From: Myxacorys almedinensis A
Lineage (GTDB): Bacteria > Cyanobacteriota > Cyanobacteriia > Leptolyngbyales > Leptolyngbyaceae
NCBI RefSeq assembly: GCF_010091945.1
Contig: NZ_WVIE01000009.1
Location: 124,001 to 188,000 of the forward strand
Reading direction: 5' to 3'
DNA length: 64,000 bases
Part shown: in pieces, positions 6,618-56,153 of the stretch
Layout: each line of letters opens with the position of its first letter
How positions within the stretch are numbered: the stretch's first letter is position 1
Notes under the pieces: model-generated
The model's database searches: none
What the model saw: the letters and a program-made list of their open reading frames with translations, nothing else
What the model was told of the DNA's origin: nothing
Position numbers and translations under genes: made by a program

Positions 6618-7622
6618 CTATCGAAGGGTGGCAACGAGTTGATCTAAAAGAGCATCACCTTCTCTCGCTAAGTAGGCTTCGGCAACGTGGATCAGAGCAT
6701 TTAGGTGAGCGTCATCTGCTCGATCGATATCGTCAAACACTGGAGCTAGCTCAGTTTGAAACCGAAAATAATCGCTTGAGGACAGCAGTTGGCGAGAAAT
6801 ATAATCGACAGAATCCGCAGAACCATCGAATAAAACATTGATTAATGGCAAAGCCCAGCCGATCGCACCCCACGTTTGAGATTCTCGGATGCTGATCGGG
6901 CGGGCGACATCACCTGTGCCAAACGATGCCACGACGAAGGTTTTTAAGCCTCGAAAATTGTCTTCTGTAACATGATCTTCAGCAAAATCGGCTCTGGCAG
7001 CACCGTCGCGATCGTGGTGAATTCGCACTGCCTCCGCGATCGCACATGCCGCCGGATTGTTTGCCACCACACCGCCATCAATGAGCGGCACAACCTGACC
7101 TCTAATTCGGGTAAGGTGGGCTGGAAAATAGACCGGAGCCGATGCCGAGGCTTTGCAAATTTCCCAAATTGGCATCCCATTATGCTTTTCTGCTCTGCCT
7201 TCGATCGTTTTAAAGATCAGCGGTTCGCGCCTGTGCAAGTCGTAGGTCGTGATCAGCGTTGGAACCTTTAACTCGCCAAAGCTGCGATCGCCAAACACGT
7301 CTCGCAAGACGCGCTCTAATCCTTCGCCATCATAGCGGGGTTGGAAGAACTGCCTCAAAAACCGCCAAAAGCGATTGAGCCACCACGCTCTGGGAGTTGG
7401 AAAAATGTCTTTGGCACGAGTGCGGTAAAGATCGACGATTGCGATCGCAGGTATGCCCGACGCTAACGCGCACGCGATCAGTGCTCCGGTAGACGTTCCG
7501 GCTATCAGATCAAAGTGCTGAGCGATCGGGGTTCCTAATTTCTGCTCAAGGCGCTGTAACCAGACAGCCGTGATCAACCCCCGCACGCCGCCACCACTAA
7601 GAGACAAGATCTTGTAGCTCAT
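6618..7622 (-). CDS. Patatin-like phospholipase
   Basis: The product (334 residues from the ATG at 7622) is a patatin-family lipid acyl hydrolase using a Ser-Asp dyad. The oxyanion loop SGGGVRGL is near the N-terminus, the nucleophile elbow is GTSTG, and the dyad Asp lies in LIDGGVVANNP. A GTG five codons upstream is possible, but the ATG is preferred because the upstream purine-rich GGGAGTGTGG is better placed as its ribosome-binding site. No signal peptide is seen, so action on inner or thylakoid membrane lipids from the cytosolic side is likely. The membrane protease gene ends 73 bases upstream, so the two may be cotranscribed. Confidence 0.9.
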   Translation of the reverse strand: MSYKILSLSGGGVRGLITAVWLQRLEQKLGTPIAQHFDLIAGTSTGALIACALASGIPAIAIVDLYRTRAKDIFPTPRAWWLNRFWRFLRQFFQPRYDGEGLERVLRDVFGDRSFGELKVPTLITTYDLHRREPLIFKTIEGRAEKHNGMPIWEICKASASAPVYFPAHLTRIRGQVVPLIDGGVVANNPAACAIAEAVRIHHDRDGAARADFAEDHVTEDNFRGLKTFVVASFGTGDVARPISIRESQTWGAIGWALPLINVLFDGSADSVDYISRQLLSSSDYFRFQTELAPVFDDIDRADDAHLNALIHVAEAYLAREGDALLDQLVATLR

Positions 7623-7694
7623 ACCCCACACTCCCACTTAGTAAACCACTGGAAGTGTGAAAGACTTTAAGCCAAAGCGCGACAAACTAGAGAC

Positions 7695-8936
7695 TTATTT
7701 TGCTCGCAAATCTGCTGCCGACTGCGCGATCGTACCCAACTTCAAACCAGGGGGGTAGGCTCCTTCTTCTTTAATTTGTTTGATAATCGCATCGGAGATC
7801 GGCAAATTCATTTTCTGACCCAACGCCCGCACAATATCACCGCGATCGATCACTCCAGCTACCGCTTCAGCCGGAGAAAGCACCGTGATGTGAGGTAAAT
7901 TTTTGTCTTCAAGCAACTGAATGACTTCCACGATCGGCGTTGTTTCTTGAACGGCAGGCACATCGCTCAGCGACTTCAGAATGCTGTCTAGGGTCTTGCT
8001 TTCCCACTCGCTGCGCTCTATCAGATGCAAAGCATCGACATCTACCATGCCGCGATACCGACCGTTTGACGCCGCATAGTAGACAGGGGCACGATTTCCA
8101 GAGAGCAAATGATCATCAGCAAACCGGCGCAGGGTCATGTCGGCATCAATCACCCGAAAATCGCGAGTCATCGCGTCTTGAGACTTAATCTTCAACAGCG
8201 CTTCTTGCAAATCCGTCAGACGGTTGTAGGTCGCCGCATTTTGCACGATAAACCACCCAATCAGCGCAATCCACAGACCCCCGATCTGAGGTAAACCCAG
8301 CGATCGCGTCACGCCGAAGGTGTCTGCTAGCCCCCAAACGATCGCTACAAAGCCCAGCAATTTACCAGAACTGGCTGCCCAGCGAATCCCTTGAATTTGG
8401 CTGCCTGTTGCTTTCCAAACGATCGACTTGAGCACCTGACCGCCATCGAGGGGCAATCCTGGAATCAGATTAAACAAGGTCAACACGAGATTGATTCCGG
8501 CTAGCCGAGTGAAGAGAACCTGGAGAGGAGCCTCATCCCCAGAAGCGAGAAACCCGATCAATCCAAAAATCAGAAATAAACTAAAGCTGACCAGCGGTCC
8601 TGCGATCGCAACTTGAAACGCTTTTCCTGGGGTTTTCGGTTCCTGCTCGATCGCGGCAATGCCACCAAAGAAAAACAGCGTAATCGACTCTACCCGAATC
8701 CCTTGAAGTCGGGCGACGAGGCTATGCCCCAATTCATGGAGCAGCACCGACAAAAATAGCAGCAGCGCGGTTGCAAATCCCACGCCCCAAGCCAACTGCA
8801 CGCCCCAGGCTTGAGCATATCTAGCTTGGTACTCGGCTCCAGCGCCCAGAGTCACCAGAAATACGACAAAGAACCAAGACGGATCGACTAGTAAAGGAAT
8901 GCCAAGTAATGATCCGACTCGCCAACCTGATTGCAT
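7695..8936 (-). CDS. Site-2-type intramembrane metalloprotease (M50) with CBS pair
   Basis: A 413-residue M50B membrane protease. The zinc motif HELGH is at residues 67-71 within a hydrophobic helix, and the second metal-binding motif is LIPGLPLDGG near 158-167. About five to six membrane segments cover residues 10-235. The C-terminal third holds a CBS-domain pair (about 250-375), usually an adenine-nucleotide sensor, and the sequence ends in a short helical tail. An SD-like AGGAAAGAG precedes the ATG. Members of this family (Rip/SpoIVFB branch) cleave transmembrane regulators; the substrate here is unknown. Confidence 0.9.
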   Translation of the reverse strand: MQSGWRVGSLLGIPLLVDPSWFFVVFLVTLGAGAEYQARYAQAWGVQLAWGVGFATALLLFLSVLLHELGHSLVARLQGIRVESITLFFFGGIAAIEQEPKTPGKAFQVAIAGPLVSFSLFLIFGLIGFLASGDEAPLQVLFTRLAGINLVLTLFNLIPGLPLDGGQVLKSIVWKATGSQIQGIRWAASSGKLLGFVAIVWGLADTFGVTRSLGLPQIGGLWIALIGWFIVQNAATYNRLTDLQEALLKIKSQDAMTRDFRVIDADMTLRRFADDHLLSGNRAPVYYAASNGRYRGMVDVDALHLIERSEWESKTLDSILKSLSDVPAVQETTPIVEVIQLLEDKNLPHITVLSPAEAVAGVIDRGDIVRALGQKMNLPISDAIIKQIKEEGAYPPGLKLGTIAQSAADLRAK

Positions 8937-24449: not shown

Positions 24450-26108
24450 TCACTGCCAGACAAACACTTTTGCCTCAAACGCACCCAGGTCAGTCATTAG
24501 AGAACTATCATTTGCATCCACATCATAGTTTCCTGTCCATTCGTGCCACGTTCCATTTTCTGGAAAATCTGGCACTGTATATCCTGCCAAGAACTGCTCT
24601 GAAAAATTGGCGACAACCACAACTCGCGAGCCTTCGTCATTCCACCGCGTGTATGCCAGCACTTTTGCCTCTGGGTTTTCGTGGAAGAAGTTGATGTTTT
24701 CGGTGTAGAGCGCGCGATTGCTTTTTCGCAATGCAATCAGACCTTTGTAATACTCAAACAGCCCGCGATTGAGATCGCCCCCTAGCAGCGTCCAATCAAT
24801 CTTGGCTTGCTCTTGCACTTTGTGTTTATATTCACCAAATTCTTCGCCCATCCAAATAAGGGGCACGCCTACGGCAGTCAGTAACACGGCAGCACCCAAT
24901 TTTGCCCGTTGAAAAGCGGCTTCGTCTAGAATCTGGCGATCGCCCAACTCTGCCATCACATGGTTGTGATCATGATTGGTCAGATAGTTGACCACGTTGG
25001 TTGTGCCCATAAATCCTTGACGTTTGCAATCGATCGCATCTTTGAGTCGTTCTAGGTCGAACACTTCGCCAGTCATGTGTTCTAGCAGGCAATGATAAAA
25101 ACTGTCGTGCCAGCAGCCATCCATCGGGCCGTCGGCATTGGTAATACTGGTGGTTTCAGGAATGTGTTCGGCAACGTTATAAAACGGTTTTCCTCCTGCT
25201 GTTTCTCTTGCTTGCTGAACAATCCAATGCATGAAATCATAATTGGCAATCTGTCGGGCAGCATCATAGCGAATGCCATCGAGATGAAATTCGGAAACCC
25301 AATAGCGAATGGTATCCCCAATAAAGCGACGAGCAGGATAGGTATCTAGTTGATCATCATAAAATTCATAGTTAAATTCGGGTCCCCAATTGTTATCTGG
25401 GTCGCGCGGCTCATGGTGATACCAATAGTCGTGATCAATCTGGGTGAGCGGAGCGGAGGCTTCAGAATGGTTATAAATTCCATCCATAATGACGCGAATA
25501 CCGCGACCGTGGCACTCATCTATAAATTGCTTGAGATCGGCGGTGGAACCGTAGCTCGATTCGGTTGCAAAAAAGTGCCGTGGATTGTAGCCCCAGCTAT
25601 AATCCCCTGGATATTCTTTGAGCGGCATTAGCTCGATCGCATTTACGCCTAACTCAGACAAATAATCGAGCTTTGCGATCGCATCGACATATTTGCCCCG
25701 CACCTTGGGATCGTCTTCGCCACCCGAAAAATCTGCCATGTGCAGTTCATAGATCACAAGCTCACGATCGGCAGGCAGCGGCTGATCGTCATGTTGCCAA
25801 ACATAGTGATCAACCGTGCGATCGCCGCCGTGAATCTGGACGATAGAATTTTCGCTAGAGCTTTTGCCATCCACATCGGTGGCGTAGGGGTCGGTGACAT
25901 CGACCCACTCATCTGGCTCAAAAAACCAGCTTTTCGATCGCACTCGAAACTTGTATTCGTGCGTCCCATCTTCTAAATCGACCGTGACCCGAAAATAGCC
26001 ATCGTCGCCTTTCTGCATCGGAATCTCGTTCCAATCTGAAAACGAACCGACGATCGCGGCTTCCTTGTTATAAGGAGCAAACAAATTAAACTCGACAGGA
26101 TTTGCCAT
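24450..26108 (-). CDS. GH13 alpha-glucan enzyme with N-terminal CBM48 (alpha-amylase/branching type)
   Basis: The 552-residue protein starts with a CBM48 sandwich (about 1-85: FNLFAPYNKEAAIVGSFSDWNE and DGTHEYKFRV). The (beta/alpha)8 barrel follows, with conserved region I in DGIYNHS, region II DGIRYDAAR carrying the nucleophile Asp, region III NVAEHIPE with the acid/base Glu, and region IV YLTNHDHN with the third Asp. A C-terminal beta domain ends the chain. No signal peptide is seen, so it acts on intracellular glycogen or oligosaccharides. Whether it hydrolyses or branches is not clear; it resembles short cyanobacterial and bacterial branching-enzyme-like GH13 proteins. Confidence 0.9.
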   Translation of the reverse strand: MANPVEFNLFAPYNKEAAIVGSFSDWNEIPMQKGDDGYFRVTVDLEDGTHEYKFRVRSKSWFFEPDEWVDVTDPYATDVDGKSSSENSIVQIHGGDRTVDHYVWQHDDQPLPADRELVIYELHMADFSGGEDDPKVRGKYVDAIAKLDYLSELGVNAIELMPLKEYPGDYSWGYNPRHFFATESSYGSTADLKQFIDECHGRGIRVIMDGIYNHSEASAPLTQIDHDYWYHHEPRDPDNNWGPEFNYEFYDDQLDTYPARRFIGDTIRYWVSEFHLDGIRYDAARQIANYDFMHWIVQQARETAGGKPFYNVAEHIPETTSITNADGPMDGCWHDSFYHCLLEHMTGEVFDLERLKDAIDCKRQGFMGTTNVVNYLTNHDHNHVMAELGDRQILDEAAFQRAKLGAAVLLTAVGVPLIWMGEEFGEYKHKVQEQAKIDWTLLGGDLNRGLFEYYKGLIALRKSNRALYTENINFFHENPEAKVLAYTRWNDEGSRVVVVANFSEQFLAGYTVPDFPENGTWHEWTGNYDVDANDSSLMTDLGAFEAKVFVWQ

Positions 26109-26630
26109 AAAGCTTTCTATAGTCAGACGTTTGACTTACGGTTGAGAGGAACGTATCGCATTGTCTACTGCAAATCCAGCATTTTGTATCTAGCCTTAGA
26201 CCCTAACCGCCCCCTAGTTTCCTATTCCTCTAGGCGCAGGTTAACCGAAGAGTGCGAATTTCATCCCCGCTTCTTGGCAGGGCTGATTTATCGGCGGTAT
26301 AAACAGGAGAATAAAGGAGTTGCTCTTGATCTAAGTTGTCATGAGCTTGATTGAACATCTCAAACAAATCCGCGATTTTTGCACTGAACTCATCTCTCTT
26401 TTGCAGTCCCGTTTGCGCGAATTAATCTGTCAATGTTAGAGATCGAATTTCCAGTCATACGGCTGATGATATTCGCGATCGCAGAGCTATTGTTAAAACA
26501 ATGCTGCCGTTTGTGAGAATTGAGAACTGTTGAAAAAAGTTGGCGATCGTTCAGTTCAACAACAAACCGTGGTAGAACCCTATCATTGGTTCCGGCGATC
26601 GCAAGATAACGTATGTTGACACAACTGCTG
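26109..26630. other. 520-base spacer with no supported gene
   Basis: Frames are short and lack family motifs. It should contain the promoter of the GH13 gene near its left end. Several HIP1 octamers are present; no terminator was recognised for the gene on the right. Confidence 0.45.
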
Positions 26631-27437
26631 CTACTTTCGCTCCATTGGGCGCTTTGAGAGGTTGAGTGTGGCGCGTGAAACAGGGGCAGCGGTTGTCATA
26701 ATGCGGGTGCGGCTTTGGGACTTCCAATGTTGATATCGCAGCAAGGGAAAAGACGCGACCTGTTTTGCCAATGCCCAGAAAAAGACGTAGCTTGCCAACA
26801 ATCGCTCAAATGAATCAAACCGGGCTTCTCGGAATTGCCCCAGCGTGATCTGTCGTTCGAGAGGACTGTCATTCGACTCAATCAAAACAGGCGAGACACT
26901 AGACAAAATAATCGCGTCTTGAAAGCCTTGATGTGCGATCGCGCTGTTGTGCCCCAAGGCGATGATTTCTGCTCCTGTATCTAAATTTCGGACTCCAGTT
27001 GCTTGCTTGCCCGTCATGATGATTGCACTTTCATTCTCTTTTTGCGTCGGGCTGCGTCGCCCATCGGGGACTCCTAAGAAGATTAACGTCCCTCTGACGA
27101 CTCGATGACCAAAATGGTGCAGCATATGATCTTGTGGATTCGCACCATGAACGTCTAGGGAAGCGATACCGTAGCTGAGTGAAAATAGTTTGCTGACATA
27201 CACTTTCAAGAGTTGATGAACCCAAGGCACATCGCCAATCACAAGCGATCGCTTTCCGGTACGGGCTAGGAGGGGTCTCTTCTGCACAGAGCGCAGTCCC
27301 AAGCTCCAAAGCCAAGGACCAAAAATATAGAGCAAGATATCTGCCACTGTGAGCAATGGGAGCAACAACGTAGGAACTGGCAAATTTGCAACGCCAAACA
27401 TCGCACGAAATAAGGTTTGAACCAATGGCGCGTGCAA
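26631..27437 (-). CDS. Membrane/SIS-like protein, probably the out-of-frame second half of the upstream SIS gene
   Basis: The 268-residue frame begins with a TTG, but the same frame stays open upstream to 27608, overlapping the end of the preceding SIS gene by about 54 bases. The upstream extension includes coding-looking sequence WAWHILETPLAWGIHALYIL that would complete a membrane helix. Two hydrophobic segments lie near the start (residues 5-50), followed by a soluble domain with LVIGDVPWVHQLLKVY, and DAIILSSVSPVLI, which resembles a second SIS half. The chain ends in a basic tail. Function unknown; it is likely a segment of a larger GlmS-like protein with a disrupted frame. Confidence 0.55.
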   Translation of the reverse strand: MHAPLVQTLFRAMFGVANLPVPTLLLPLLTVADILLYIFGPWLWSLGLRSVQKRPLLARTGKRSLVIGDVPWVHQLLKVYVSKLFSLSYGIASLDVHGANPQDHMLHHFGHRVVRGTLIFLGVPDGRRSPTQKENESAIIMTGKQATGVRNLDTGAEIIALGHNSAIAHQGFQDAIILSSVSPVLIESNDSPLERQITLGQFREARFDSFERLLASYVFFWALAKQVASFPLLRYQHWKSQSRTRIMTTAAPVSRATLNLSKRPMERK

Positions 27438-27553
27438 TCCTACGGTAATCAGAATATAGAGCGCATGAATTCCCCAAGCTAAGGGAGTTTCTAGGATGTG
27501 CCATGCCCATTTCTGACTACTCCGAATCAGTTGCTGATGATCTGAAGATCGGT

Positions 27554-28621
27554 TCAGTTCGCCACTTGCGGTTGTTCCAACAACTGTGCGATCGCAGTTC
27601 CCATCAGACTACAAATCTCTCCCGTCATAATGAAGAGTTCGCTGATACTTCCTTGGCGGCGGAGTTCTTCTAGAGCGTTGGTCGCTTGCAAGGTCGGAAA
27701 GGTCTGCCCAGACTGACTAATCGCCAGCACGATCGAGGTTTTACCCAGACGCAACCCTTTCCAGTCATACTGCAATCGTTGTAAAAGCTGATTGGCAGAA
27801 ATGGTTTTGACGCTAAGCGAGGGGAATAGCAGGGTTAAATCTTGGGCGAATCGCTCACCTAGCCACAGACTGCTTTCAACCCCCGTAATTAGAAGATCGA
27901 TCGCGGCGATATCTGCAACCTGCTCTAGTTTGAAATTAACGGTTGCACGCTGCCTGTGATCCCAGAGCTTTGCTTTCTCAATCAGTAATTCAACCAAATA
28001 GTCTGCGGTCTGACGATTAAACGAAACTGGATCGCGCCAAGATTGCTCGATCGACTTGAGAACTTTAGGAATATCCTGAATGTCTCGTTGGACTGGATCG
28101 TTTGCCTGTTCTTCTGGCGGCAGAATGTAGGCATTGTCTTGAAGCGGAATCCAGCGTTCTTCGAGTTCTGAACCGCGCAGTTCACGGTCTTCTAGCATGG
28201 AATAAACCGTGATGTGATTCACGCCGACCCAGGCAATTTCACCTGCTTTTTGGTCTAAGTCCAATCGATACGATCGGGGAATGAGGGTCGCTTCTCTATA
28301 GATGTAATTGCGGTGTTCAGGCTGGCTGCGGAAATTCTCAAAGACCTCTAGGGCGGCGTAAGCCGGAACGGTTTCGCTGATAAACTTGGGCGAGGTCTCT
28401 AACTGTTTTTGAAGCAGAGGCGCAACGTGTTCACTGGTATAGCTTCTGACTGCATTCATAGTTTGAGTCAGGATTTCAGCTTTTGTTGAAACTTCATCCT
28501 CGGCTTTGTGCTGCATTGCCCGTGACAATGTAATTCCACTCAGAATTGTTCCACCTAGAAAAATCAGAGTGAGTAGCAACGTAAATTGAGTTCCCAGCCT
28601 GAGCTTTCTAAGCATTTCCAC
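27554..28621 (-). CDS. DUF3365 (Tll0287-like) and SIS-domain fusion
   Basis: The 355-residue protein has an N-terminal membrane helix (about 12-33) and a DUF3365-like region with TMNAVRSYTSEHVAPLL near 54-70 and the EATLIP segment near 110-115, which in Tll0287 relatives belongs to a heme-binding PAS-like fold. After about residue 125 the sequence changes to a sugar-isomerase (SIS) layout, with LLITGVESSLWLGERFAQ near 243-260 and the sugar-phosphate loop VLAISQSGQTFPTLQAT near 298-314, as in GlmS. It ends soon after the SIS core. Combined with the next frame it may once have encoded one protein. Biochemical role unknown. Confidence 0.65.
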   Translation of the reverse strand: MEMLRKLRLGTQFTLLLTLIFLGGTILSGITLSRAMQHKAEDEVSTKAEILTQTMNAVRSYTSEHVAPLLQKQLETSPKFISETVPAYAALEVFENFRSQPEHRNYIYREATLIPRSYRLDLDQKAGEIAWVGVNHITVYSMLEDRELRGSELEERWIPLQDNAYILPPEEQANDPVQRDIQDIPKVLKSIEQSWRDPVSFNRQTADYLVELLIEKAKLWDHRQRATVNFKLEQVADIAAIDLLITGVESSLWLGERFAQDLTLLFPSLSVKTISANQLLQRLQYDWKGLRLGKTSIVLAISQSGQTFPTLQATNALEELRRQGSISELFIMTGEICSLMGTAIAQLLEQPQVAN

Positions 28622-29106
28622 TCCTTGAGTCAGAGATTGCTAGAACGATATTAGGTGATATGCAACTTTAAACTTGATAGTTAAAACCGCTCCTAATCCA
28701 GCCAAAGCGTGCCTCCGCACACTCACAGTCAACCTGAGAAAGCAGTCCACGAAGGTAGACTTCGTTTGTATGCCCGCGAATTTTATTTGCCAAGTCAAAA
28801 GAAGTCTGCGCATCGCCTAATATTACGATGAGCGTCAAAGATTTCGTTCTTTAGACGGTAGCTGAGTTAATCTTTCTGCACTTCGTCTTCGGAGTCTTCG
28901 GATGAAATCAATATAGGAAAGACTGTAGGTCTTGTCAAATTTAATATAAAACGTTAAGCAAAACGATCGTCGTCTTGAGACCGCATCAAACACTACGGGT
29001 TTTAAGGGGTTTGGTACGCATAATGACGTGCAGAAGATTGTAGATCACGATACAGTTTTAATCTCAAAATGTGGCTATTAGTAATTGCTGATTTATTCAC
29101 AAATCA
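28622..29106. other. 485-base spacer with no supported gene
   Basis: A/T-rich sequence between the DUF3365/SIS gene and a TPR-like fragment. No gene, tRNA or clear hairpin was recognised. The promoter of the SIS gene should lie near its left edge. Confidence 0.45.
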
Positions 29107-29451
29107 ATGATCGATTTTGCTAAGTTTTGGGTGAACAGATCACGATCCATCGAGTCAGAAATCGTGATGGTAACTCTGTCATCCAGATCATCCAGCGTGA
29201 TCGCGATCCTTTGTGGTGAACAAACAGAGCCGAATTGTGGAAAAGAGAGTGCAGTTGCGATCGCGCGTCAGCCGTCTGATCCGTTTGGAGAAGCCGCCGG
29301 ATTAGGAAGCTTAGGCAATGTTTATCGACTACAGAATCAGGCGATAGCACGGCAAAAGATGAGTTTATTCAACAGGCAATTGATATGGCATATGCTCAGA
29401 GAGCCTGATTCGCGCTACGATTTTCCCACTTTCGGATATGCAATTCGCTGA
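29107..29451 (+). pseudogene. Possible TPR-gene remnant
   Basis: The 114-codon frame has one TPR-like stretch, EAAGLGSLGNVYRLQNQAIA near residues 62-81, similar to TPR_12-type repeats of cyanobacterial CHAT/kinesin-light-chain-like proteins, with unconvincing sequence around it. A second frame gives DEFIQQAIDMAYAQRA at the end. This fits a decayed TPR gene. It overlaps the last bases of the convergent 7TM-HD gene. Confidence 0.3.
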
Positions 29452-31835
29452 TGATTAGACTGTTGCCATACTTGGACAAACACCTGAGCAATTTTAGACA
29501 TTTCTTCACGAGTCAGCCCAGAGTCATCTAGCTGCCCTTCTTTCCAACGCGCCGCCAAAATTTTATTGAGCATATTCAAGGCATCGTCGGGAGTGGCTTC
29601 TTTGAGCGATCGCAGGGCGGCTTCTGCCGAATCTGCCAACATCACTAGCGCCGTTTCTCGCGATTGAGGCGAAGGTCCTTCGTAGCGAAAGTCTGCCTCG
29701 TTCACCCGAATTGTGGGATCGGCTTTTGCCCATTCTTGAGCCTGGTGGTAGAAATAAGCGATCGCCATCGTGCCTTGATGCTCTGGAATAAACGCCTGCA
29801 CCGCTTTGGGAAGCCGGGCTTTTCGCGCCATGACGATCCCTTCGGTAACATGCTTTCTGATAATGCAAGCACTTTGCCACGGGTCGTTGATCAGATCATG
29901 CTTGTTAGGACCCCCCATCTGATTTTCGATGAAGCTGAGCGGATCGTGCATCTTACCAATGTCGTGATAGAGCGTTCCTGCTCGCACCAGTTCGACATGG
30001 CAGCCAAGGTCGCGGGCAGCCGCCTCAGCCAGATTTGCCACAAATAACGTGTGTTGAAACGTACCAGGCGTCTCGGCGGCGAGGCGTTTAAGCAAGGGGC
30101 GATTTGGGTTGGATAACTCGACAAGCCGAATAGTGGTGACTACATCAAACGCATGTTCTAGATAAGGGCTGATGCCACTGGCAACAATGCTCCACGCTAG
30201 CCCCAGCAGCGCATACAAAATCGCTTTGCCGATCAACCCGTACCACACCACGCCAGAAGCAGCCCCGATCACGAGATAGAGCATGCCCTGAATCAACCCG
30301 ATCGCCAACCCCAGCAGCGCCAATTCTTCGCGCGATCGCATGCGTCTGCCCAAAATCGCCGCGACCAACCCTCCGGCGGCACTTGGCAACCACTGGCTCA
30401 CGCTGATCGTCATTCCCATCGGAATCAGCCCACTGAGCAGACCCACGAGCGGAACCGCCAACACCGAGCCATAGAACGTACTCATCAACAGCCCGATCGC
30501 GGGTAGGTTGGTCGAAGGAAGACCCAGCATCACCATCACAGGCGTACTGAGGGTCATCAACCAAACCAGCCAATAGTCCCGATTTCGCAGCCCCTCCGGA
30601 TGAAAGCGTTGCTCAAGTTGCCAAAACACCACCACTGCCCCACCGACGAGAACCCCAAAGCCTACCAACCCTGCCCAATGAGTTTCTCGACGGCTCAACT
30701 GAAAATAATCGAGCAGCAAAAAATCTTGAGGGGTAATCGGCTGCCCCGCTTGAGCAATCACTTCGCCTCGGCGGACGCTGACCAGTTCTGGCGGAACATC
30801 TTGCGCCGCTTTCTCGGCTTGCAGGCGCGATCGCTCCTCGTCTTTGATCAAGTTTGGTTTCAGGGTGCTGAGGAGAAGTTTTGTGGCAATCTCGCGCGTT
30901 TCGGGCGGCGTCGCAATGTCTAAATTGAGCGCGATCGCTCTTTCCACCTGGCTCGATGGCAACCCAGGCGGAATGCCCTGCACCAACATTCGTTCACTCG
31001 TTTGCAGCACTTCACTTTGCATCTTTTGCCACATCGGTTCTGGAATGTCTAAAATGGAAAAGTCATACACTGGTTGGGTTGCCGGAGTTTGAAAGGCACT
31101 GAGTGTTGTGGCATACTGCTGTCGTGCCTGGGTAATTTGCTCTACAAGCTTTGAAAAGATTTGCGGGCGGGGGCGATGTAGCTGCAAGTCTACCATTGCG
31201 CCCCATTGCGACGGATCGCTGAGCGTGGTGGAGTCGTTTTGCTCAGACGATTGTTGAGCCGCTTCTAAAATCTGTTGCCATTCCCGCTCTTCGGCACGCC
31301 GCAAATATTTCTGAGTTGCCTCCGAGAGCAGCCGTGGATCGGCAAACGGAACCGTTCCCACTTGCTGCCGCAACCGTGCGCCCTTGACGAGCGCGGTTTG
31401 CACCTCTTGCCGGATGCGGTCTGTCGTGGTGGAATCGAGCATCCAAACTGCGATCGCAACTGTACGAGCCTTTTTTCGCTTTTCTTCTGTGGCGGGCTTG
31501 TCTTCTACCGTGGCGTCTACGGGCGCTTGAATCGTTTGGGGGGCAAGCTTGCCAACGCTAAGCTGAGGCTGGTTGTAAAAGCCGTGTCCTAAAGCACTGG
31601 TGAGGGATAAAGCAGCGAGAACCAGCGCCATTTGCCCTGCAAAGCCTTGACGGATTACTTGGGGAACACCATCTTTATGAGTTAACCGTTTGCGAAGCGT
31701 TTTGACTCGATTGATCGATGTGATAGAAACGAAAAAATATTGCAGATGATCAATCGAAACGGCGCGATGGAGATGCCAACCCCACTGAATGCACACCTGT
31801 TGAAGTCGCCGAGTCAATGACCGAAAGGATCGCAT
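29415..31835 (-). CDS. 7TM-HD family phosphohydrolase (PgpH-type, probable c-di-AMP phosphodiesterase)
   Basis: The 806-residue protein has a membrane helix near 65-83, a large extracytoplasmic 7TMR-HDED domain (about 90-390), seven membrane helices (about 395-575) and a cytoplasmic HD domain. The metal motif is GTLYHDIGKMHDP, preceded by PGTFQHTLFVANLAEAAA and followed by IRKHVTEGIVMAR and FIPEHQGT. PgpH relatives hydrolyse c-di-AMP, which regulates osmolyte and K+ balance and night survival in cyanobacteria. The first 60 residues are a basic extension longer than usual. Function is inferred from the family. Confidence 0.92.
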   Translation of the reverse strand: MRSFRSLTRRLQQVCIQWGWHLHRAVSIDHLQYFFVSITSINRVKTLRKRLTHKDGVPQVIRQGFAGQMALVLAALSLTSALGHGFYNQPQLSVGKLAPQTIQAPVDATVEDKPATEEKRKKARTVAIAVWMLDSTTTDRIRQEVQTALVKGARLRQQVGTVPFADPRLLSEATQKYLRRAEEREWQQILEAAQQSSEQNDSTTLSDPSQWGAMVDLQLHRPRPQIFSKLVEQITQARQQYATTLSAFQTPATQPVYDFSILDIPEPMWQKMQSEVLQTSERMLVQGIPPGLPSSQVERAIALNLDIATPPETREIATKLLLSTLKPNLIKDEERSRLQAEKAAQDVPPELVSVRRGEVIAQAGQPITPQDFLLLDYFQLSRRETHWAGLVGFGVLVGGAVVVFWQLEQRFHPEGLRNRDYWLVWLMTLSTPVMVMLGLPSTNLPAIGLLMSTFYGSVLAVPLVGLLSGLIPMGMTISVSQWLPSAAGGLVAAILGRRMRSREELALLGLAIGLIQGMLYLVIGAASGVVWYGLIGKAILYALLGLAWSIVASGISPYLEHAFDVVTTIRLVELSNPNRPLLKRLAAETPGTFQHTLFVANLAEAAARDLGCHVELVRAGTLYHDIGKMHDPLSFIENQMGGPNKHDLINDPWQSACIIRKHVTEGIVMARKARLPKAVQAFIPEHQGTMAIAYFYHQAQEWAKADPTIRVNEADFRYEGPSPQSRETALVMLADSAEAALRSLKEATPDDALNMLNKILAARWKEGQLDDSGLTREEMSKIAQVFVQVWQQSNHQRIAYPKVGKS

Positions 31836-31972
31836 AATCGCAAACGTATCAGGTTAATAAACATCAGGGTGAACGGACGTTACTGCGCTAGAGCTAAGAC
31901 ACCGGAAATTGATCGACTCCTTTAGAGTATGTTTTGACTACTTATTTTTTGTTGTATTTTTTTGTTTTATAA

Positions 31973-39995: not shown

Positions 39996-41732
39996 TTACT
40001 GCCCTTGCAATCGTTTAGCGGCGTTCTGAGCGCGTTGGCGTTCGTCAGGCATAGTCTGACCATACAATCGTGCCGCCTGCTCGTAGTCTTGAACGGCAGC
40101 CTGATTGTCCCGTAATGCGACATAAGCGTTGGCACGGTTGAAGTAGGCATCGGCAAATGCAGGATCGAGGTTAACAGCACGGTCATAGTTCGCGATCGCT
40201 TGCTGGTGATTCCCCGCTTTGGCAAACTCGATGCCTCGGTTGTAGTAAAAATTTGAATTGTCAGGATTGAGCGTAATGGCTTGGGTGTAGTGATCGATCG
40301 CGCCTTGACGATCGCGCTCTTGGCTTCTGCGATATGCTTCTTGAAAAAAGTCTTCGGCGCTATTGAGCGTATTGGCAGACCGGGGAGTGAGCGTCTGAAA
40401 AAGCAAAAATAAGACGGCTCCGAGCAGCCCCACCACAGCAAGAGCCGCGATCGCAATCAGCCAACCATCGGAAACCGAATCGCGGGGCAAATTGCGATTT
40501 TGAAAAAACTGATTCACCCGTTCTAGGCGGGAAGGTGGGCGGCTATCGAGTTCGGTGGGGCTGTCGAGTTCGGTGGGCGGCACTTCGGGCGGGTTGGGGT
40601 CAGGCGGAGGCGGTTCGGGTAAGGGGGCGAGGGTTTGCTGAGAATCTACCACTCCTGCTGCGCCCATTTCAGGGTAAGGAGACAGGTTTGGAGGAGGAGA
40701 GCTAGAACCCGGTTGTAAGGCGTAGATTTCTTGCAACCGCATCAACTCTGTTTGGGTATTGTCGCTGAGTTGTCCTTCGCGTTGCGTCACTTCAGCGCGG
40801 AGGTCTTCTAGCTGTTTGCGCTTATCCCGTTGAAGTTGGTAGGGCTTGATGGCGTCTCGCTTAATCGCACGGGCAATTTCATCTGAAATCCCGTGGCGTA
40901 GCTGTAGTTCATCTAAAATTCGATGTCCGACGAGAGAAATTTCTCCTCGGCTTGCCAAACTCAGGGCTTCTTGGCGAAAGTCGAGATAGGGAGCGTGCGC
41001 GATCACAATTTCGTACCCTTGTCCTGCGGTGTAGAATCTGGGCTGAGCCGCAGGCAAATCGGTTGCCATGCGATCGCAGATATAGTCATGCAACTCAATG
41101 GTGGTCACGTCTCCATTGAGGCTGCGATGCCCCATGCCGTCAGCCATGCCGGTGGCTAAGCCATTCAGCAAATATTGCGTGTACGTCGAAACGAGCGCCG
41201 ATTTTTGGTTAGGGGAATAGTCGAGCGACCACGGAGAAGTAAGCAAAACGCGACGTTTACTGCTGATCTGCTGCCCGATCTGATCAATGTCGGCAGCGGC
41301 AACCATTCCTTGAGCATAAGCCCCTCTAAAGCAGCAGTCGAGAATCACAACTTGCGGCTGCGATGGAAAGTGATGATCCAAGTACTGTTGCAACTCTGCG
41401 ATCGACAGGGCTGTGTCTTCAAGCTGAGAGCGCTGGGTGTTGCCTGTTGCTAAAAATAAGTGCCCTTGGTCATCGACAATGCCATACCCAGAAAAGTAAA
41501 AGAGAACAACGTCGGTAGGTTGGCAGGTGGTTGCGAGCGTTTCTAAGGCAGAGCGCAGGGATGACAAGTCTGGAGGATCGCTTAGCGCCAGCACTTCTGA
41601 AGCGCGACTGGCACCAATGTTTGGATGCCGCAGCATCTCTTGCAGGGCGGCGACATCTTGTGTCGTGGCGGGCAATGCGCTAAAACTTGGATCTTTGTAT
41701 TGACCCATCCCAACAAGCAGTGCTGCTGTCAT
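39996..41732 (-). CDS. Caspase-like (orthocaspase) protein with TM segment and TPRs, His lost
   Basis: The 578-residue protein starts with a caspase p20 domain (about 1-250). The strand preceding the catalytic His reads VLFYFSGYGIVDD near 76-88, where active enzymes have SGHG; Tyr replaces His. The Cys motif is VVILDCCFRGAYA near 128-140, so Cys is kept. A charged linker (about 290-410), a membrane helix (IAIAALAVVGLLGAVLFLLF near 425-445) and three C-terminal TPRs (for example QGAIDHYTQAITLNPDNSNFYYNRG) follow. It is probably proteolytically inactive, a pseudo-orthocaspase acting as a scaffold or sensor, which is inference from the His loss. Confidence 0.88.
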   Translation of the reverse strand: MTAALLVGMGQYKDPSFSALPATTQDVAALQEMLRHPNIGASRASEVLALSDPPDLSSLRSALETLATTCQPTDVVLFYFSGYGIVDDQGHLFLATGNTQRSQLEDTALSIAELQQYLDHHFPSQPQVVILDCCFRGAYAQGMVAAADIDQIGQQISSKRRVLLTSPWSLDYSPNQKSALVSTYTQYLLNGLATGMADGMGHRSLNGDVTTIELHDYICDRMATDLPAAQPRFYTAGQGYEIVIAHAPYLDFRQEALSLASRGEISLVGHRILDELQLRHGISDEIARAIKRDAIKPYQLQRDKRKQLEDLRAEVTQREGQLSDNTQTELMRLQEIYALQPGSSSPPPNLSPYPEMGAAGVVDSQQTLAPLPEPPPPDPNPPEVPPTELDSPTELDSRPPSRLERVNQFFQNRNLPRDSVSDGWLIAIAALAVVGLLGAVLFLLFQTLTPRSANTLNSAEDFFQEAYRRSQERDRQGAIDHYTQAITLNPDNSNFYYNRGIEFAKAGNHQQAIANYDRAVNLDPAFADAYFNRANAYVALRDNQAAVQDYEQAARLYGQTMPDERQRAQNAAKRLQGQ

Positions 41733-52643: not shown

Positions 52644-55600
52644 TCAGTTTCGGTCGTTTCCACGCCCTATATCCCCTAGTGCCGCCACGATCGCTTCTGC
52701 CTCTCCGCTAATGCGCCAAAGGGTGCGACTTGCCTCTTTGCTCACCAGTTCATACTCGCCTCGGAACGCTTCGATCAAAACCGGAATTGCCGATTTTGCA
52801 TCGGGACCGATGCAGCCCAACGCATAGGCAGCCACCCAGCGCACCTGCCAATCGTCGTCTCTCAGGGCAGCAGTCAGGGCGGGGATAGCAGGTTTTGCAG
52901 CGGCATTGAAACTAGACAACACCCAGGCAGCAGTGCTGCGAACATAGGCAGGCTGCGATTCTAACGCCGTGATCAAGGCAGGCAAAGCGGCGGTGCCGAT
53001 CTTGCCAAGGGCTGCGATCGCTTCTCCACTCACCCGTCGATCAGGATCGCGCAACCGCTCGATCAACGCTGGAATCGCCATGCGAGCCTCTGACCCAATC
53101 AGCCCGATCGACCAAGCCACTTCTCGACGAATGCGCCAATCTCGATCTTGCAGTTCTCGCACCAGCGCTGGCAACACTCCTTTCGCGGCTGCGCCCAGTT
53201 CCCCTAGTTCTCGAATGGCATCTAATCGCGCGATCGTGTCTCCGGTAGACAAGAGCGGCGTCAACCGGCGCATTCGCTGCTCGACTTGAGACTTTCGTAA
53301 GGTCTCAGCACTTAGCCCCACTCGCTGCCCCAATTCACCCAACACATAATCGGGAATGTCGATTTCTGACCCACGGGTGAGGCAGCAGTCGCGCATTGCC
53401 AAGAGAAAGCCTTGAATGCTCTCTGGTGCGCCAGGCACCGCGTCGGCAAACATCAGCCACTCATCCCACAGCGCTTTATCGCTGCCATACAGATCTACAA
53501 GATGAAGCGCGGCTAAGCATTCGGCAAGCGGATCGAGCGCAAAGCAAATTTGGTCTTGCGCCGGACCGAGTGCTTGCACAACCCGGAGACGTTTTTCTAA
53601 ATGCTTGAGCCGAAGTTTGGCAGATTCTTCCTCGCTGCCAGAGGGCAATTCACGCTGCGAAGCAGACGACGATCGCAGCTTGGCTAAAATGACATCGCGC
53701 TTGGCAGGAGCAGGACGATAGTATTGTTGCAAGCACTCCCAGGCAATAATTTTCGCGTCTTCGTGGACGGTGAGATTGTCTGGCGTATCGTCTGGGGTGT
53801 CGCGATTTAATTCGTTTAAATAGCTCAACATCAAATCGGGAATGTTATCGGGCAATGCACTTTCATCGTTGATGCCTTCTTTTTTGCCGATCATTTGTTC
53901 AGCATAGAGCGTTGCTAACAGCACCGTGATATGACGCTGACCCACCATTTTTGACAGTTGGCTACAGGCATCAAAGTATTCAGAATCGGTGAAGAGTTCC
54001 CGTTTGCTGCGCTGCATCAAGTACGCCTCTAAAAACGAGGATAGGCGATTGCCTTCAATGCGGAGCGGTTTAATCGTGGTTTTGGGCACTTCGTCGAGCA
54101 CTTCTTCTGCCCGCGAGGTGACGATCAGTGCATTTGCTGGAAAGTCTGGGTGCCCAGGGCGAATCTGCTGACGGGTTTCCTCGCTCAGTTCTGACAAGCG
54201 ATCGACAATCACTAAAATGCGACGCTGCCGCAGGAGTTTTTCTAAAAAGTCATCTGAGATCGGCTCTGAAGCATCGATCAGCGCTTGCACTTGTCCGCGA
54301 ATCGCTTCCCTAAACGGATTTTTGCCCTCAGGAAGTTTGAAGTCTAGCTCTTGCTCGATCAGCACAGGCAACATGCGGTGATGGCAAAGCCGATGAGATT
54401 TTTGATCCGCCATTGCCCATTTTGCCAGGTGACACGCCAAGCTGGTTTTCCCGATGCCCCCTTCGCCCCAAATGAGCAGACACTGCCGCCCGTCCCAAAA
54501 GGTGGTGTGTAGATCGTTGTTGGCAAGTTCTGGAACGGTGTTGCCGTTTAAAACGACGGGAATGGGGATGTAAACCTTGCGATCGCTGACCGTGTTTTTA
54601 TGGGCAAAGCCTTCTCGCGCTCCGGCAATCTGCTGATTGACCCAGGCATCGAGTACCCTGGGATGATAGTGAAACCAGCCAACAAACAAGACAAACCGCA
54701 ACGGAACTTTGATGCTGTTGCCCATGGGAATGGGAATTTCAAAGTCGGTATAGGGCTGGAGGGCATTGTTGAGTTTCAGCAGCCATGAGGGGCGCACCAG
54801 CAACAGGGCAAACCAGAGGCTAGGCATGCCCACGAGATAGAGCAGCGCCCCCGCGATCGCCGGGTTTGCCTGCCCCCACTCAACCACGCGCTCAAACGGG
54901 CGAGAGTCTTTTTCGTTTTTGAGAACGCTGATCGAGCGGCGCACCGAGATCACCAATTCTTCATTGAGTCGAGCGCTGGGATTTTCCAACAGCGGCAACG
55001 CACCTTCTAACGTGGTGTACGCCGTGTAAATCTCGACGACAGACAGAGAAGGCGCTTTATCTTGCAGACTAGCGGCAATCAACCGGAGCGCATTGGCAGC
55101 ACCCAGCCGCACTTCGGAATTTTCATCGCTCAGCAGTTTGACTAATTCAGGCAAAGCGTTTTGTGCCTCTAGCCCTATGCGTCCTAATGCCGTTGCAGAT
55201 TGCAGCCGCACATCTTTTTCGGGGTCGGGCAGCGCTTTAGTCAGGTCGGGAACGGCGGCTTTGGCGGGGCTGCCAACTCTGCCTAATGCGATCGCAGCAA
55301 AGGCGCGCGTTCTACCATCGGCGTGGCTCAGCGCCCGCACAAGTTGAGGAACGGCTGGACTTGCTTCCGCTCCAATACTGACGAGGGCGCTCGCTGCCTT
55401 GAGCCGAATATCGGTGTTAGCGTCGCTGAGCGCTTGGGCCAGAAAGGGGGTGGCTGATTTGGCATCGGCTCCTAGTTTGCCGAGGGCGGTAATGGTGGCG
55501 AGGCGCACGTCTAGCTCTGCCGTTGATAACGCCTGAATCAGTTCTGGAATGGCTGGCTTTGCGGCAGTTCCTAAATTAGAAATCGCGTCGATCGCCGTCA

Positions 55601-56153
55601 CCCGTACCGCTTTGCTAGGATCATCGAAGGCTTCGATCAAGCTCGGAACGGTGATCTCTGGAAAACTGCTCAGGCTGCCCAGGGCACGAGCCGCCGCAAC
55701 ACGCACCTCTTCATCATCATCTTTGAGGGCTTTTACTACGTCAGGAACAGCGGCTTTGGCAGCAGCACCGATCTTGGCTAAGGCATCTAGGGTAGCAATC
55801 TGAAGGACTTTTTGCTTAGCCGTCGTTCCTTTTGCAAGGGTAGAAACGGCGGGTCTAGCATCGGCTCCTAACCGACCGAGAGCCGCGATCGCGCCTAACC
55901 GCACAGACAGCTTTTCTTTGTCATTTTTGAGCAGGGTAATCAATTCTGTGATCGTCGGCGCATCTGGCTTGCCCACCAAAGCTGTAGTAGTTTTGGGTGC
56001 TTGACGGTTTACCTGTTGCCGCAGTTGGGCAGACACCTCGATCGCATCGGCTCTTTCGCTGGTGTCGCGGTTGGGTGGATGCACGATCGCAGAGGCACAG
56101 AGGAGGCTGATCTGACATGCCAGCAAGAAAAGTTGTCGGTTACGCACTGTCAT
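52644..56153 (-). CDS. Large membrane HEAT-NACHT-HEAT protein
   Basis: The 1169-residue protein starts with a hydrophobic segment (about 7-25), then about eight HEAT repeats (65-362, for example VRVAAARALGSL, VRLATITALGKLGADAKSA), a membrane helix (431-453, ALLYLVGMPSLWFALLLV), and a P-loop NTPase domain of NACHT/STAND type. Walker A is IWGEGGIGKTSLA (561-573), and Walker B-like is ILVIVDRLSE. A second set of about five HEAT repeats (980-1160) ends the chain. Predicted topology puts the first HEAT block outside the membrane and the NTPase plus second block inside. The role is unknown; STAND proteins often act as signalling or defence switches. Confidence 0.88.
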   Translation of the reverse strand: MTVRNRQLFLLACQISLLCASAIVHPPNRDTSERADAIEVSAQLRQQVNRQAPKTTTALVGKPDAPTITELITLLKNDKEKLSVRLGAIAALGRLGADARPAVSTLAKGTTAKQKVLQIATLDALAKIGAAAKAAVPDVVKALKDDDEEVRVAAARALGSLSSFPEITVPSLIEAFDDPSKAVRVTAIDAISNLGTAAKPAIPELIQALSTAELDVRLATITALGKLGADAKSATPFLAQALSDANTDIRLKAASALVSIGAEASPAVPQLVRALSHADGRTRAFAAIALGRVGSPAKAAVPDLTKALPDPEKDVRLQSATALGRIGLEAQNALPELVKLLSDENSEVRLGAANALRLIAASLQDKAPSLSVVEIYTAYTTLEGALPLLENPSARLNEELVISVRRSISVLKNEKDSRPFERVVEWGQANPAIAGALLYLVGMPSLWFALLLVRPSWLLKLNNALQPYTDFEIPIPMGNSIKVPLRFVLFVGWFHYHPRVLDAWVNQQIAGAREGFAHKNTVSDRKVYIPIPVVLNGNTVPELANNDLHTTFWDGRQCLLIWGEGGIGKTSLACHLAKWAMADQKSHRLCHHRMLPVLIEQELDFKLPEGKNPFREAIRGQVQALIDASEPISDDFLEKLLRQRRILVIVDRLSELSEETRQQIRPGHPDFPANALIVTSRAEEVLDEVPKTTIKPLRIEGNRLSSFLEAYLMQRSKRELFTDSEYFDACSQLSKMVGQRHITVLLATLYAEQMIGKKEGINDESALPDNIPDLMLSYLNELNRDTPDDTPDNLTVHEDAKIIAWECLQQYYRPAPAKRDVILAKLRSSSASQRELPSGSEEESAKLRLKHLEKRLRVVQALGPAQDQICFALDPLAECLAALHLVDLYGSDKALWDEWLMFADAVPGAPESIQGFLLAMRDCCLTRGSEIDIPDYVLGELGQRVGLSAETLRKSQVEQRMRRLTPLLSTGDTIARLDAIRELGELGAAAKGVLPALVRELQDRDWRIRREVAWSIGLIGSEARMAIPALIERLRDPDRRVSGEAIAALGKIGTAALPALITALESQPAYVRSTAAWVLSSFNAAAKPAIPALTAALRDDDWQVRWVAAYALGCIGPDAKSAIPVLIEAFRGEYELVSKEASRTLWRISGEAEAIVAALGDIGRGNDRN

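Follow-up and report, generated by a model that had tools for sequence, protein, structure and literature searches.

Organization of the locus

The window analysed here is a 64,000-nucleotide stretch of the cyanobacterium Myxacorys almedinensis A. Between positions 26631 and 28621 its minus strand holds two overlapping reading frames. The first is an ORF at 27554–28621 that encodes 355 amino acids, with a DUF3365 head and the loop ISQSGQT at residues 301–307. It contains no further stops, and by eye a good ribosome-binding site (AAGGAG) lies ahead of an ATG at 28615. The PF11845 profile (Tll0287-like/DUF3365) matched ORF residues 37–118 with 39.2 bits (cut-off 24.1, E 1.2e-9), covering only the first part of the profile (positions 1–66 of 144). 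The second frame is open from 27608 to 26631 and encodes two hydrophobic segments (residues 49–67 and 78–96 in frame numbering) followed by a SIS2-like end. The two frames share 55 bases, and according to the ORF list the second one offers no ATG, GTG or TTG before 27437. A CXXCH heme c motif is absent from both. The arrangement of the two frames described in the initial annotation was thus confirmed. Pfam called no SIS domain in either frame, such that the earlier SIS call had rested on the loop; the assignment is nevertheless borne out by ISQSGQT together with the predicted fold of an intact relative (see below).

Intact relatives carry both halves in one gene

When 42 genomes of the order were searched with the second frame, four other genomes (G018, G033, G039 and, with three copies, G019) proved to encode intact homologues as single ORFs, with lengths between 989 and about 1240 amino acids. 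A scan of GTDB genomes provided 13 loci, all cyanobacterial and some of them on the same contigs as those of G033 and G039, while 386 genomes sampled over the phylum added only one further genome with the gene. Neither a plasmid nor a phage collection contained a match to the intact protein. Overall, each intact relative is one cyanobacterial ORF, about 990–1,280 amino acids in length, with the order glutaminase, SIS1, membrane segment, SIS2.

Window residues 114–350 match residues 382–618 of the G018 protein P0003, an intact homologue of 1017 amino acids, at 85% identity. The second frame matches its C-terminal third, residues 696–1014, at 82% identity. The E-values for the frames (2.8e-141 and 0.0) place this similarity far beyond chance. 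A database search for a single gene with both halves, as the initial annotation had advised, was therefore successful: rather than being always two separate genes, the relatives hold both halves in one frame. This supports the proposal that the two window frames derive from one ancestral GlmS-like gene. The proposed DUF3365-SIS-TM-SIS arrangement survived in part. Its SIS-TM-SIS half is ancestral to the intact family and was not made at the window locus. The full architecture, which had been considered a novel fusion, occurs in none of the intact homologues, and no intact DUF3365-SIS gene was found.

The frame junction lacks 250 bp

The change between the frames had been attributed to a one-base indel. 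In the DNA alignment to G018, however, an advance of two bases in the window corresponds to a step from 7460 to 7712 in G018, such that a net 250 bp are missing. G033 and the loci L013, L026 and L027 show the same loss. It places an out-of-frame breakpoint at 27581–27583, between the middle of the GlmS-like gene (27583–28282, minus strand), comprising the end of the glutaminase and most of SIS1 including ISQSGQT, and its 3' part in the other frame (26631–27583, minus strand), comprising the two membrane helices and the SIS2-like end. The loss removes about 80 conserved codons, among them the last part of SIS1, at the overlap of the frames. Since 250 bp do not make up whole codons, the loss explains the frame change and leaves SIS1 and SIS2 of the window copy in different reading frames.

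The DUF3365 head stems from the first gene of an operon

In G018, G033 and G019 the GlmS-like gene closes a run of four genes that share one strand. The run starts with a DUF3365 hybrid histidine kinase, followed by a 700-residue HisKA/receiver/HAMP/MinD-like protein (kinase/MinD-like ATPase), a roughly 600-residue multi-receiver/HisKA protein and the membrane GlmS-like amidotransferase gene. The first 113 residues encoded at the window locus (28283–28621, minus strand), which cover a membrane helix and the start of the sensor domain, are 89–90% identical to the N-terminus of the DUF3365 kinases of G018 and G033. The DUF3365 alignment ends at 28290 and the GlmS-like alignment starts at 28282; within this interval kinase codon 113 is joined directly and in frame to GlmS-like codon 382. 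The DUF3365 part therefore stops at residue 113 and not near residue 125 as had been estimated, while the suspected past recombination between a DUF3365 head and a GlmS-like gene did take place. At this junction 7298 bp are missing relative to G018 and 7257 bp relative to G033, i.e. about 7.3 kb. As codon 113 belongs to gene 1 and codon 382 to gene 4, the fusion corresponds to the two ends of the operon being brought together.

Relative to the DUF3365/Tll0287 heme-Cache histidine kinases, the window copy is truncated before both the CXXCH motif and the kinase part. The motif reads CLQCH and lies at 165–170 in four intact kinases; it is 99% conserved in the DUF3365/Tll0287 family (PMC12889525). 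In G019 (L028) a second kinase copy lies downstream of a GlmS-like gene, a reverse order that could not yield the window fusion by one deletion. At L060:4965-11004 (G020) the DUF3365 kinase and two partner genes are followed by a minus-strand ORF with no GlmS-like gene after them, and at L061 (G024) the kinase and both partners are present where the contig ends.

The main rival to a true deletion is that the strain holds an intact operon of which the assembler skipped the interior. The genome is in 85 contigs, and the breakpoints rest on the assembly rather than on reads. Such an artefact would, however, require two independent gaps. The missing GlmS-like parts, including P0003 residues 1–378, have no counterpart on any other contig of the host genome, whose assembly is 100% complete, and there is no intact second copy in it. 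Furthermore, no long direct repeats that could mislead an assembler were found at the breakpoints, with microhomology at the first junction amounting to at most a few bases. We thus consider a skipped interior improbable. The comparisons establish the homology, the ancestral gene order, the absence of the missing GlmS-like parts and the breakpoints, the latter as they stand in the assembly of one genome.

Age of the remnant and its genomic site

Both GlmS-like pieces have a dN/dS of about 0.08 against G018 (dN 0.10, dS 1.17–1.19), close to the 0.06–0.08 found between pairs of intact genes. Since the piece behind the frameshift shows no relaxed dN/dS, the inactivation must have been recent. The low value could also be read as a sign that the 355-residue fusion is a young functional gene, for instance one for a SIS protein in the membrane whose role would be to bind a sugar phosphate or to disturb signalling, in line with its open frame and the in-frame first junction. 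Yet only half of the sensor domain is present and SIS1 is truncated. Moreover, dN/dS is just as low in the frame beyond the second break, which is out of reach for translation from the start of the stub; the low value is thus a legacy of the time when the gene was intact. A young gene is accordingly very unlikely.

Looking at the locus in relatives, which had also been advised, provided two pictures: the four-gene operon in the three genomes above and, in the congener G001, a site without the segment. There, about 120 bp separate the two flanking genes (window 24450–26108 and 29415–31835), and no other gene lies in between. G001:C25:16376-18122 matches window 24454–26202 and G001:C25:18242-20719 matches 29415–31898, such that window 26203–29414 is missing from the congener. 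The patchy distribution fits either an entry of the operon into the window lineage or a loss from G001.

Three intergenic stretches around the remnant (26276–26390, 26401–26536 and 28689–28798) resemble sequences scattered over several places in related genomes and look like small dispersed repeats; copies of these flanks within the own genome were not found. Elsewhere in the window, inspection by eye revealed a 1169-residue protein with HEAT-like repeats and a NACHT-like NTPase core (GEGGIGKTSL; 52644–56153, minus strand), and a protein whose N-terminus is caspase-like (metacaspase-type), with a membrane helix and TPR-like repeats behind it (39996–41732, minus strand).

Nature of the intact GlmS-like proteins

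Sequence profiles did not place the intact relatives in a described family: Pfam returned nothing above its cut-offs for the intact protein, the NCBIfam glmS equivalog scored 20.3 bits on the relatives against a cut-off of 418.05, and a PDB sequence search with the protein or its profile gave no match. For the L014 relative, AlphaFold2 produced a model from 11 sequences. Its mean pLDDT was 61.6, with fair to good quality for residues 1–600, poor quality after 779 and a poorly modelled SIS2, whose confidence was too low for placing the catalytic residues of the isomerase. The model aligned to human GFAT-1 with a Z of 22.3 (441 residues, rmsd 4.7) and to the glutaminase of E. coli GlmS with a Z of 22.1 (235 residues, rmsd 2.8); SIS1 alone reached a Z of about 15. 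By fold comparison, the intact relatives thus have the GlmS fold of glutaminase plus SIS. In the alignment Cys2, H103-Y104-R105 and H151-N152-G153 are invariant, and we take the latter two to resemble the glutamine-binding motifs of GlmS.

The intact protein is best interpreted as a putative GlmS-like amidotransferase that carries an insertion of membrane helices between SIS1 and SIS2. With GlmS/GFAT it shares the order glutaminase, SIS1, SIS2 and the invariant Cys2; it differs by its length of about 990–1,280 residues, the inserted helices and a weak sequence similarity. Some relatives carry a further membrane extension in front: at L013, L017, L022, L024, L025 and L028:6588-10313, roughly 220 residues precede the glutaminase. 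This puts the invariant Cys inside the chain (FNCGNFGF), and only after cleavage would it be an N-terminal nucleophile. The window copy, in contrast to GlmS/GFAT, lacks most of the glutaminase with its Cys nucleophile and is frameshifted.

Discussion

With a probability of about 0.92, we consider the locus to be a recent pseudogene, left behind after a four-gene operon of patchy distribution suffered two deletions. A deletion of about 7.3 kb would have linked codons 1–113 of gene 1 to codon 382 of gene 4 without a change of frame, and the frame would have been shifted by a second one, which took 250 bp out of gene 4, the order and cause of both being something that we infer. The sole product would be a 355-residue membrane stub. 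As it would lack the heme motif, the glutaminase nucleophile and a complete SIS1 or SIS2, it is most likely inactive, and the window copy has most likely lost its function. That one intact DUF3365-SIS-TM-SIS gene was broken only by a one-base indel, as overlapping frames of common ancestry might suggest, is ruled out at the junction by the 250 bp and about 80 conserved codons missing exactly there, and with no intact DUF3365-SIS gene found this scheme has practically no probability left.

The pseudogene resembles others formed by deletion within an operon: the beginning of the first gene runs into the end of the last, the interior between them is lost, and a secondary deletion shifts the frame. 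The window locus shows nothing unusual in this comparison. With this, the false lead of a new DUF3365-SIS fusion is removed and replaced by a case of recent operon decay for which both breakpoints, the ancestral order and an empty site are available.

The intact relatives provide the better lead. A literature search on a membrane GlmS-like family found nothing relevant. The relatives may make an amino sugar phosphate under the control of the kinases. We tentatively suggest, at somewhat less than even odds, that they are GlmS-like amidotransferases with a membrane insertion and form a family of their own that has not been described, present in a few cyanobacteria and encoded in one operon with a heme-c sensor phosphorelay as their possible regulator, and that the window records the recent loss of this family. 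This unnamed, patchily distributed family with its ties to heme-sensor two-component genes would be biochemically testable.
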